Shown here in pieces: positions 40,908-55,987 of a stretch of 64,000 nucleotides of DNA. Origin of the DNA: a virus. Position 1 is the first letter of the stretch; each line of letters opens with the position of its first letter. Position numbers and translations under genes: made by a program. The stretch is taken from positions 1 through 64,000 of the IMG/VR virus record IMGVR_UViG_3300028829_004004, one strand, 5' to 3'. The notes under the pieces were generated by a model that was not told the DNA's origin, ran no database searches, and worked only from the letters and a program-made list of their open reading frames with translations.

Positions 40908-40947
40908 AGAAAAACCCCCACTAGGATTATCAGTCCTAGTGGGGGTT
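40908..40947 (-). terminator. Terminator after the capsid gene
   Basis: Read leftward, AACCCCCACTAGGA pairs with its exact complement over 14 bp (40947-40934 with 40926-40913), followed by TTTTTC. A strong stop for capsid transcription. Confidence 0.85.
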
Positions 40948-49835: not shown

Positions 49836-50418
49836 TGATGTCTTCCAGTTTTTCTTTGGTTTACCCGTGCGGTGTTCCCGCGTTGAGATAAACTTATACC
49901 CGTTCGGAGATAAAACAACCCGGTTTCCAGTTCTTTTGTTGGTTTTTCTTTTTTTTCTTTTTCCGTCAGGAGGATCTGATGGGGGTTTTTCTGATGGAAT
50001 CTTTTGAGGATGGCGAGCGGAGCGAGCCATGCCGCGCCGAATGGCGCGGAGAGGTGGCGCCGAAGGTGCCATCCTCGGAATCTTCCGGCCTACCCCCGTA
50101 GGGGGTAGACCAAAGAAGAAAATGTGTGTGATACAAATGTGTGTGATTCCGATTTCGGATTTACCCCTTTCCCCCTAAAGGGGAAAGGGGTATGCTCGAG
50201 ATCTAATTTTGCACGAATAGGGTACTACTACGAAGTAGTAGTACCTATTCGTACGCTGTAAATTAGTAATCTGTACTATATCTTTAGATATAGTACTAAT
50301 AATAAAATATATCTAAAAAGCGCGTGCGAGCGTGCGCGGAGCGTGCGTGCGCGCACCCGTACGTAACGCGCGTGTATGTGGGCACATACACGTACGTAAC
50401 ACGCGCGCCCCTAGTTGG
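49836..50418. other. Gene-poor region packed with inverted repeats
   Basis: About 580 bases with at least eight hairpins and a GC-rich patch. CCGCGCC/GGCGCGG (50032-50049), CTACCCCC/GGGGGTAG (50090-50108), a 13-bp stem at 50162-50192, an 18-bp bulged stem at 50213-50252 with flanking arms CTAATTT/AAATTAG, GTACTATATC/GATATAGTAC (50273-50296), and CGTGTATGTG/CACATACACG (50371-50392). A 13-base direct repeat (AAATGTGTGTGAT) starts at 50120 and 50135. It lies at the divide between leftward and rightward transcription. Candidate origin of replication, transcription hub or multi-terminator; no function shown. Confidence 0.7.
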
Positions 50419-50628: not shown

Positions 50629-50665
50629 TACTACGAGTCTCCATTACTACTTCGTTTCTCTGAAT

Positions 50666-50693
50666 ACTGTAGTAGCAAAAGTAGAAAATTCAA
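50666..50693 (-). promoter_or_regulatory. Sigma70-like promoter, leftward
   Basis: On the minus strand TTGAAT (50693-50688) and TACAGT (50671-50666) are 16 bases apart, just upstream of the small membrane protein gene. Confidence 0.45.
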
Positions 50694-50709
50694 CAAAGGA
50701 ATGGAAAGG

Positions 50710-51288
50710 ATGTCTAACATTAACCGAAGGTTAGGTCTGGCGTTTGTTCATATCCCAAAGACCGGAGGAGTCGCTGTGTGCGAGTCCCTTGGGTTAGCAA
50801 TACGAGGGCATCAGCGTCTCTCGGAGATGCGCCGGTTCCGTCGTAGGTACTTCTCTTTCTGCTTCGTCCGCAACCCTTGGGACCGAATGGTCTCTGCCTA
50901 CTCGTACTTCAGGGCAGGGGGAAGAGGCCACCGGAATGATATCAAAACTATGCGCGTTGTGCGAGAGAGTTCTACCTTCCCTGAGTTCTGCTCACGATTA
51001 GAAGACCCCGAGTTTAAGCGAAGGCTAGAGAGATGTCGCTCCCCTCACTTCCTACCTCAGGTCCACTGGCATGACCCGCGGATTAAATTGGTGGGGAGGT
51101 TTGATAACTTTGCGGAGGACTTCAAGGAGGTCTGCACGCAGGTGGGCTTACCGGACACTGAGCTTTTAGTTCGGAATACTAGTGAGCACTTACCATACCC
51201 CGAGTACTACACTGAGAGTGCTGCTCAGATTGTTGAGCGGGTCTACAAAGAAGACATTGAAAAATACAACTACAAGTTTGGAGATTGA
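50710..51288 (+). CDS. Sulfotransferase (copy 2)
   Basis: About 192 residues from the ATG at 50710; the ATG at 50701 is too close to the AAAGGA box, so the second is preferred. HIPKTGG at 14-20 binds the 5'-phosphosulfate and CFVRNPWDR near 51-59 the 3'-phosphate of PAPS, as in the Sulfotransfer_2 family. It is the first rightward gene and is followed directly by an APS kinase gene, so the pair can supply and use PAPS. Confidence 0.8.
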   Translation: MSNINRRLGLAFVHIPKTGGVAVCESLGLAIRGHQRLSEMRRFRRRYFSFCFVRNPWDRMVSAYSYFRAGGRGHRNDIKTMRVVRESSTFPEFCSRLEDPEFKRRLERCRSPHFLPQVHWHDPRIKLVGRFDNFAEDFKEVCTQVGLPDTELLVRNTSEHLPYPEYYTESAAQIVERVYKEDIEKYNYKFGD

Positions 51289-51290
51289 TT

Positions 51291-51785
51291 ATGGTTATCT
51301 GGTTCACCGGGCTTTCCGGTTCAGGGAAGACAACACTCGCAAAAGAAATCCTCAAAGTTTTACCCCGCGGATTCCTTGTGGACGGGGACATGCTCAGAGA
51401 AGGGTTGTGTGCTGACCTCGACTTCGACCCACCCTCTCGGCATGAACAGGCACGGCGGGCCGCAGGAGTTGCCAAGATAGCTCATGCAAACGTTTGCACG
51501 GTAGCCTGCTCTGTGATTACCCCACTGGAGAAAAGCCGGGAGGTAGCACGTGAGATGCTCAAAGACTGTGACTTCAAAATGGTCTATGTCAGCACTCCAC
51601 TAAAGGTCTGTCAGCAGAGGGACCCCAAAGGACTTTACGCAAAAGTTGCTGCCGGAGAGATCACTAAGTTTACTGGAATCAGTAGCCCTTTCTGGCCCCC
51701 CGCACAATACGACTCTGTTGTGGACACAACTGATAGAACAATCACTGACTGCCTTGATCAGATTCTTTCTGATATCGGCTTGTAA
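51291..51785 (+). CDS. cysC: Adenylylsulfate (APS) kinase
   Basis: A 164-residue CysC-like kinase from the ATG at 51291, with GGAG upstream. GLSGSGKT at 7-14 is the P-loop, DGDMLREGLC at 31-40 and the DLDF-x6-R-x-E-x3-R block follow, then RDPKGLY and KFTGI near the end, all diagnostic of APS kinase. It converts APS and ATP to PAPS, the sulfate donor. No ATP sulfurylase is encoded, so APS would come from the host. A palindrome inside is read ANVC. Confidence 0.9.
   Translation: MVIWFTGLSGSGKTTLAKEILKVLPRGFLVDGDMLREGLCADLDFDPPSRHEQARRAAGVAKIAHANVCTVACSVITPLEKSREVAREMLKDCDFKMVYVSTPLKVCQQRDPKGLYAKVAAGEITKFTGISSPFWPPAQYDSVVDTTDRTITDCLDQILSDIGL
51485..51498. promoter_or_regulatory. Dispersed palindrome site 14 (in cysC)
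   Basis: Perfect 14-bp copy in coding sequence, read as ANVC. Confidence 0.8.
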
Positions 51786-51842: not shown

Positions 51843-52115
51843 ATGGACCTTGAACGAGAAAAAGTAAATACATTGCGAGAGGCGGGGTTAGGCCACTCGG
51901 TAGCATTAGCAGCGGAAGGGATGTGCCCCACCTGTGCCGAGCCAGTTAGCATCGACGCCCTAGCTGAGGCGGGCTACCTAGCTTTCTACAATGCTTTCGG
52001 GATGTGCCTCGATTGCATTACCCTCCACAAAGAGGAAGACCCGGACGAGCTAATCCTCAAATGTGAACTCCGAGCACATGCTCTCCAAGAGGAGACTTTC
52101 AATGACTCTCTCTGA
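51843..52115 (+). CDS. Small Cys-containing protein
   Basis: A 90-residue acidic protein. CPTC and a later CLDC form a possible zinc-binding set. Its end overlaps the start of the sigma-like gene by 14 bases. Confidence 0.55.
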   Translation: MDLEREKVNTLREAGLGHSVALAAEGMCPTCAEPVSIDALAEAGYLAFYNAFGMCLDCITLHKEEDPDELILKCELRAHALQEETFNDSL

Positions 52116-52590
52116 GCTACAAAACACAGAAGGGTTGGTTGTCAATCTGATAGATAGGATGGCACAAGATCTTCTTGTGTTCTTTGACTTCCGGGACCTT
52201 GTACAGGATTGTATAATTGCGGTCTCAAAAGAGCAACACCGATTCGATGAGGCAAGAGGGAAGTGGTCCACCTTCGTCTCCGTAGTGGTACGCACGGTCC
52301 TTAGCAGGACCCGCACTAAGTGCTACCGGTTACCCCTCTCGCAAGACCCTACCCTCCCTGAGTTCTCGCATTGCCCCGACCCTCACCCTCTACCTTGGGA
52401 AGGTGTGTCCCGAGAGGATATCGCAAGCGCGTACCTCTGCCTCGATGAGAGGGAGAAGAAAGTAGTGGAGGACTTCGTCCATAAGGTGAACCAAGAAGAG
52501 ACCGCGGAAGAGTGGAACATTCACAGGACACGGGTCGCGCAGATCAGAAAGCAGGCTTTTGAAAAAATTAGAACCACCCTCGTAAGGTAA
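52102..52590 (+). CDS. Sigma factor-like protein
   Basis: About 162 residues from the ATG at 52102. A region 2-like helix (FRDLVQDCIIAVSKEQHRFDE) is followed by WSTFVSVVVRTVLSR. A C-terminal region 4-like helix-turn-helix (DEREKKVVEDF, then TAEEWNIHRTRVAQIRKQA) ends the protein. This is the two-domain plan of short extracytoplasmic-type sigma factors. It may direct host RNA polymerase to phage promoters. Confidence 0.65.
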   Translation: MTLSELQNTEGLVVNLIDRMAQDLLVFFDFRDLVQDCIIAVSKEQHRFDEARGKWSTFVSVVVRTVLSRTRTKCYRLPLSQDPTLPEFSHCPDPHPLPWEGVSREDIASAYLCLDEREKKVVEDFVHKVNQEETAEEWNIHRTRVAQIRKQAFEKIRTTLVR

Positions 52591-55303: not shown

Positions 55304-55987
55304 ATGGACAAAGTAATCCTCAGTATGCACTTCGAGAAGTGCGGTGGCACTACCCTCAGATACTTCTGGAAGAAATCCTTCAACGACTCTGAGTTCTTCT
55401 TATACGAGCCTCACCTCTATGAGCATAACGTCCTCATAGAAGAGATTGATGAGGGCGTGGGGCAGTACAAAGATGTTAAGGTAATTCACGGACACTTCGC
55501 GCATGGGCTGCACCTTTCCCTAACAAGACCGTGTGAGTACGTGTGCGTCCTCCGTGATCCAGTGGATCGGTTCATTAGTCACTTCAACCATTGGCGGGAG
55601 TGGGGTCAGGCACCCGCGGGGAGTAACGTCACCGGACAAAAGATAACGATCGAAGAGTTCCTTGAAGACCCCAGCAGTAACAGCATACGCAACCTCATGA
55701 CGAAGAGGTTAGCGGGGTTAGGGTTAACGACAGACGCTACTTGCGAGGACTTCGAGGAGGCAGCTAAGAACCTCAGTGCCTTTTCCGCGGTGGGTTTTGT
55801 TGATAACCTCCCAGAGTTTGGTAAAGAGATCGCGCACAAGTTCGGGTTGAAGGATGCTAACTGTGACTTCAAACTAAACTCCCAGAGACTCGGGACGGTG
55901 AAGCACAAGTTGCCTAAAGAAACGTTAGAGAAGATAGAGATTCTGAACTATTGGGACAGACGGCTCTACAACTCAGTAGTAAAGTAG
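55304..55987 (+). CDS. Sulfotransferase (copy 3)
   Basis: A 227-residue Sulfotransfer_2-like protein. HFEKCGGTT at 9-17 is the phosphosulfate-binding loop and VLRDPVDRF at 82-90 the 3'-phosphate site, with a final NYWDRRLY. It probably transfers sulfate from PAPS to a glycan. The other two copies and the APS kinase make a complete supply-and-use set except for ATP sulfurylase. Confidence 0.8.
   Translation: MDKVILSMHFEKCGGTTLRYFWKKSFNDSEFFLYEPHLYEHNVLIEEIDEGVGQYKDVKVIHGHFAHGLHLSLTRPCEYVCVLRDPVDRFISHFNHWREWGQAPAGSNVTGQKITIEEFLEDPSSNSIRNLMTKRLAGLGLTTDATCEDFEEAAKNLSAFSAVGFVDNLPEFGKEIAHKFGLKDANCDFKLNSQRLGTVKHKLPKETLEKIEILNYWDRRLYNSVVK

Follow-up and report, generated by a model that had tools for sequence, protein, structure and literature searches.

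What is the role of a noncoding stretch of 583 bases, packed with hairpins, that lies before the structural genes of an uncultured virus? The sequence that we analyzed, hereafter the window, comprises bases 1-64000 of a 65,525-base IMG/VR virus record, which is linear and may be incomplete; the last 2 kb of the record were handled as a separate locus. The virus is a tailed phage. Genes of its leftward arm belong to tape measure, baseplate-type, portal, capsid and terminase families and, further along, to DNA polymerase, primase, DnaB-like helicase, DnaC-like loader and UvsX-like recombinase families. The rightward arm carries sulfotransferase, APS kinase, sigma factor and ThyX genes. The region at 48-52 kb gave zero nucleotide matches against 50,697 named phages, and nucleotide searches of named phages and plasmids returned nothing of use.

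The hairpins at 49836-50418 were examined for their excess over chance. Perfect stems of at least 6 bp number six in the 583 bases and reach a summed score of 58; 500 dinucleotide shuffles averaged 4.7 and never exceeded 30, and no stretch elsewhere in the 64 kb scored above 33. With RNA parameters, the two strands gave folding z-scores of -11.3 and -11.0; with DNA parameters, on a slightly shorter stretch, the values were -11.4 and -12.1. With a stem score beyond all shuffles and such z-scores, the array is not due to chance. An initial annotation had listed here at least eight inverted repeats within about 580 bases, among them GC-rich stems, a 13-bp C/G stem, an 18-bp stem and an AT-rich stem, plus a 13-base direct repeat. 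All were recovered in place and the stems far exceed the shuffles, the 18-bp stem being present as 18 pairs with one bulge. An array of about nine hairpins, real and evolutionarily maintained, is therefore confirmed.

Relatives were sought with five proteins, namely the terminase, the portal, the capsid protein, the sulfotransferase and the product of the gene next to the ribbon-helix-helix gene. The locus was found in two contigs only, L005 and L006, the terminases of which are 79-80% identical to that of the window. The shared locus was not seen in the more distant matches (L007, L010-L014, L028-L040, L050), and a terminase search of bacterial genomes gave none. Also, when an 18-base piece of the relatives' array was searched against viral contigs, the contexts found beyond L005 and L006 resembled unrelated chance matches. 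In both contigs the hairpin gap occupies the same place and, as read by eye, has the same order of elements as in the window: an alternating GC zone, an AT stem, a TACTAC-type stem, a CCCCC stem, GAGCGNAGCGA hairpins, CATCAGA-type repeats, the GGTATAAGTT block and the ribbon-helix-helix gene. In L006 a stop divides the terminase gene (L006:9998-11650) into two ORFs, and tblastn matches run straight through; this is either a sequencing error or a real break.

The array had been placed at the transcription divide. The divide is indeed close by, but the array itself lies between two leftward genes. To its right, and upstream of it, is a small membrane-protein gene of 69 aa (50628-50419, - strand), of which both L006 and L005 carry a homologue in the corresponding position (34-42% identity). 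Between the two relatives, changes in this gene favour the third codon position (27 vs. 15/11), with 21 synonymous and 18 nonsynonymous codons. Homologues in both relatives and a third-position bias in the leftward frame indicate that the gene is real. Because a real leftward gene stands to the right of the array, the array sits between two co-directional genes and the true divide is the divergent gap at 50629-50709; there, by-eye comparison found TTGAAT conserved in the leftward direction, and the rightward sulfotransferase starts at 50701/50710. To the left, the ribbon-helix-helix gene (49835-49617, - strand) heads the long leftward packaging/structural operon, which includes the capsid gene. 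The presence of such a gene beside the array, already proposed from the sequence, is borne out by sequence pattern, alignment, an AlphaFold model with helices at 21-34 and 38-50 (moderate pLDDT of 67) and Foldseek, whose top matches were Arc, VapB, ParG and CopG, none significant individually.

A place between two leftward genes would suit a region of transcript ends, in which terminators or RNase-processing hairpins 3' of the membrane-protein gene would insulate the structural operon at the RNA level. Clusters of intrinsic terminators at operon borders likewise have GC stems between co-directional genes, and a T run follows one stem in both relatives: L006 has a leftward terminator-like AGCCCCCTACGGGGGCT-TTTTTC, and in L005 the same stem, read by eye, is followed by TTTTT. 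However, the stem of the window itself has no leftward T run, the G.T bias described below lies on the strand opposite to that of a leftward RNA, and nine hairpins are needless for one or two terminators. We consider this explanation unlikely.

In the direction of leftward transcription, the locus begins with a GC-rich zone of alternating purines and pyrimidines (50320-50413), which is Z-DNA-prone and contains the stem 50371-50392. It is followed by the AT-rich stem GTACTATATC/GATATAGTAC (50273-50296, + strand), whose counterpart in L005 and L006, GTACTATAC(GTA)GTATAGTAC, lies within an imperfect hairpin of 77 nt in which all wobble pairs are G.T on the + strand. The 18-pair stem with one bulge (50213-50253, + strand) is capped by a C(GAA)G triloop; in the relatives it corresponds to CTCTCTTTAC(GTA)GTAAAGAGAG, where 6 of 10 pairs have changed on both sides with pairing kept. 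The 13-bp C/G-rich stem TACCCCTTTCCCC/GGGGAAAGGGGTA (50162-50192) has no counterpart in either relative. Next come two tandem copies, at 50120 and 50135, of the 13-base direct repeat AAATGTGTGTGAT (50120-50147), then the stem CTACCCCC(GTA)GGGGGTAG (50087-50111, + strand), which in the relatives is AGCCCCC(GTA)GGGGGCT, with two two-sided changes; in L006 it is this stem that has a leftward T run behind it.

Further left, the arms 49996-50014/50068-50086 enclose inner stems. On the + strand, these surroundings hold the stem TGGCGCC(GAA)GGTGCCA (50055-50071), with a G.T pair, and the stem CCGCGCC(GAAT)GGCGCGG (50032-50049), partly kept in the relatives (6 pairs the same, 1 broken). The hairpin ATGGC-GA-GC(GGA)GC-GA-GCCAT (50010-50030, + strand; motif GAGCGNAGCGA) combines a GNA triloop with potential tandem G.A pairs, which would flank GC(GGA)GC. 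Both relatives have the same design, as GTGGC-GA-...-GA-GCCAC, plus two more GAGCGNAGCGA units. A long imperfect stem ending in CTGATGG (49961-49999, + strand) overlaps CCATCAGA direct repeats, read on the - strand; L005 and L006 have equivalents of this stem that differ in sequence. Finally, alignment revealed a conserved block that reads leftward GGTTG..TTATC-N8-GGTATAAGTTTATCTC (49885-49921, - strand). As judged from its sequence, it is a candidate promoter or operator of the ribbon-helix-helix gene; GGTATAAGTT occurs in exact form only once in the 64-kb window. The phage also encodes a sigma-70-family factor (52063-52590), with a counterpart at L006:4139-4642 by position and sequence, and this factor is a candidate reader of the GGTATAAGTT block.

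Conservation of the stems had been proposed as a check on the array, and the stems are kept in both relatives, two contigs that are close to each other. In five helices compared between the window and these relatives, 27 pairs are unchanged, 10 differ on both sides and still pair, and 1 is broken, a count that leans towards pairing because the compared stems were picked as stems in each sequence. RNAalifold on L005 and L006 found eight pairs with changes in both partners, including one in the 77-nt hairpin. These two contigs are 96% identical over a 100-bp stretch from L005:1196, vs. 66-85% for most of the stretches around it, including coding DNA, and 82-90% again towards the terminase gene. 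The regulatory or insulating role suggested at the outset is supported by the position at an operon boundary and by conservation.

Selfish or neutral palindromes, accumulated as REP-like units in a tolerant gap, are another candidate explanation. The array does share with REP and other dispersed palindromic repeats its small imperfect palindromes and one widely dispersed unit type, GAGCGNAGCGA. It differs from them as a conserved single locus of fixed order whose other copies are absent in the phage: a search of its own record finds the stems of the window at this locus alone, order and pairing are kept between relatives, and one stretch is more conserved than neighbouring coding DNA. The dispersal of GAGCGNAGCGA hairpins, present in numerous viral contigs and one Acidimicrobiia MAG, speaks for such an accumulation, which we nevertheless regard as very unlikely.

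The GAGCGNAGCGA unit was followed in other genomes. A pattern scan for its twin form gave matches in at least 120 viral contigs. In the 80 viral loci that were read (L051-L130), 207 single units with complementary flanks were present, and their flanks continue outward for a mean of 1.78 pairs vs. about 0.33 at random. The motif is on the template strand in 19/26 tandem gaps of viral contigs (p 0.03) and occurs in 14 divergent vs. 3 convergent gaps (p 0.013), these being modest p values from 43 gaps and simple ORF calling. The Acidimicrobiia MAG (loci L045 and L046) holds 113 copies vs. 36 for the reversed control. From its sequence, GAGCGNAGCGA with complementary flanks appears as a common small hairpin unit of many viral contigs, dispersed in a bacterial MAG; in our literature search no title or abstract names the motif as a class. 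It was the loop and strand grammar of the array that pointed to this recurring unit.

This grammar is as follows. In the arrays of the window and the two relatives, all triloop stems of at least 6 bp carry C(GNA)G on the + strand (8/8, or about four independent families when homologous stems are pooled), compared with 2/25 elsewhere in the window (Fisher 3e-6). Leftward transcription uses this + strand as its template. Wobble mismatches, counted symmetrically over all arrays, are 24 G.T and 5 A.C on the + strand, a bias with p 0.008 against composition and 0.04 after redundancy removal. The alternation of purines and pyrimidines in the GC zone reaches 0.84 in the window, 0.80 in L006 and 0.75 in L005, the highest value of each sequence; in the genome of the window the background has a mean of 0.46 and a maximum elsewhere of 0.68. 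Folding energy alone did not decide between the strands, and nearest-neighbour DNA energies favoured neither of them consistently. DNA mini-hairpins closed by GNA or GNNA loops, in which a sheared G-A pair forms, are exceptionally stable (PMC4686876).

Judging by the shape of the hairpins, gene expression may be controlled through the folding of one DNA strand, or of its RNA copy. The G.T bias fits the + strand as single-stranded DNA or as RNA. The main rival to a DNA element is a structured noncoding RNA of the + strand, transcribed rightward from near 49.9 kb, possibly antisense to the membrane-protein gene or as a leader of the rightward operon. The 77-nt hairpin of the relatives pairs almost fully on the + strand only, with at least 6 G.U and zero A.C, and the wobble share over all arrays and the two-sided pair changes point the same way. 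Against it, a scan of the window with Rfam 15 at gathering thresholds gave 0 matches, the scanned region has no sigma-70-like promoter on the + strand, a conserved + strand terminator is lacking, and the transcript would run antisense into a protein-coding gene. Also, GNA triloops and an alternating tract have no special value for an RNA. We hold such an RNA to be possible, if rather improbable; were the array of this nature, it would be a phage noncoding RNA outside Rfam.

Since alternation is a property of DNA and not of RNA, a Z-prone zone in all three sequences favours a DNA element, and the loop type does so too. Our preferred reading, which we put forward tentatively, is a DNA-level control region of hairpins and Z-DNA that lies upstream of the structural-operon promoter and serves as an insulator, perhaps also as a recognition platform. 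The placement of GAGCGNAGCGA in the gaps of other viral contigs, given above, also speaks for it. The excess of G.T over A.C in the long hairpin of the relatives counts against it in so far as it fits RNA too. The position of the array, its stem excess and stem conservation, the loop and strand bias and the alternating tract are established here; to these we would add, by inference, supercoil-driven extrusion, insulation and protein recognition. Negative supercoiling, arising for example behind an RNA polymerase that leaves an early leftward promoter near 50.69 kb, could drive the GC zone into the Z form and make the GNA-capped hairpins extrude; their stable form would be that of the + strand, from which leftward transcription is templated. 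Once extruded, the array might keep early transcription out of the structural genes, and the folded template strand might be presented to a protein, of phage or host origin, by which late transcription or priming is started. As both strands extrude together in a cruciform, the strand bias would need a further step, and a protein reading such hairpins was not identified.

To our knowledge, structure-read DNA control elements have rarely been documented beyond N4 promoters, integron attC sites and similar cases. In N4 promoters, the hairpins contain a sheared G:A within their G-G-A loop, lie on the template strand and are extruded by supercoiling (PMC4496689). The array shares with the promoter hairpins of the N4 virion RNA polymerase a GNA-type triloop closed by C-G, the template strand, a place upstream of genes and potential extrusion by supercoiling. 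Unlike them, its stems are longer, more varied and many per locus, in a tailed phage with tape measure and baseplate-type genes. N4 encodes a virion RNA polymerase of about 3500 aa; the 64-kb window has no such ORF, its longest being the tape measure protein of 1455 aa, and no RNA polymerase was found, the PF00940 search being silent as were its controls. By analogy, the array may work somewhat like the extruded hairpins of N4, outside the N4 system. A broader proposal would make the array a supercoil-sensing switch, with GNA-capped template-strand hairpins and a Z-DNA tract before the structural genes, and would also make GAGCGNAGCGA a widespread DNA-hairpin element of phages and bacteria, mostly at the 5' ends of genes; taken as a whole, it is improbable. 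In any case, this uncultured phage lineage provides a concrete, testable locus, an array that is conserved and follows a clear grammar of loop and strand.

Two other roles had been proposed for the array. A recombination site is weakly indicated, as no site-specific integrase or recombinase was present among the proteins scanned (part of the ORFs). In a replication origin, the hairpins would serve the primase, DnaB-like helicase and DnaC-like loader of the phage for priming or loading; the phage encodes all three along with a DNA polymerase, and dense non-B DNA with an AT-rich stem would suit such a site. The GC skew, put forward as a check, merely tracks gene direction. The replication genes are about 33-42 kb distant, no initiator gene is adjacent, the array has no iteron family, and another noncoding stretch, at the right end of the record, has A-tracts, repeats and palindromic sites. 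An origin at the array is thus quite unlikely. The intergenic regions of ssDNA phages and the single-strand origins of rolling-circle plasmids are compact, hairpin-packed and noncoding, with one functional strand, and the array resembles them in all these respects; it differs in belonging to a dsDNA phage with its own primase, helicase and polymerase, and no Rep nickase was found among the phage proteins scanned.

The stretch at the right end (G000:C1:63960-65100, or L201:460-1600), mostly beyond the window, spans about 1.1 kb without an obvious gene. It contains A-rich tandem tracts, several repeat families and further sites of the TGCAAACGTTTGCA type; as an origin candidate it is preferable to the hairpin array. 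ARAGORN found zero tRNAs in it, although one part looks tRNA-like.

The palindrome TGCAAACGTTTGCA, which has the shape of a LacI/PurR-like operator, has 21 sites in the window with at most 3 mismatches, vs. 0.17 expected (988, 2506, 5892, 8474, 12647, 15009, 17497, 19710, 24158, 29531, 34682, 36763, 40893, 43481, 48176, 51484, 55277, 58091, 59951, 60255 and 63982). None is inside the hairpin array. Four sites are present in L005 and six in L006, and five more distant contigs have none or one weak match. A copy precedes the capsid-protein gene by 19 and 28 bp in the window and L006. These sites resemble the dispersed stoperators of mycobacteriophages.

The APS kinase and the two sulfotransferases (50701-51785 and 55304-55987) may serve PAPS synthesis and the sulfation of some target; the closest sulfotransferase among named phages is 26.5% identical. 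Also, a strong stem, AACCCCCACTAGG...CCTAGTGGGGGTT, is conserved upstream of a 1001-aa gene (window 40913-40947, L006:15731-15758, L005:10501-10528) and is probably a terminator.
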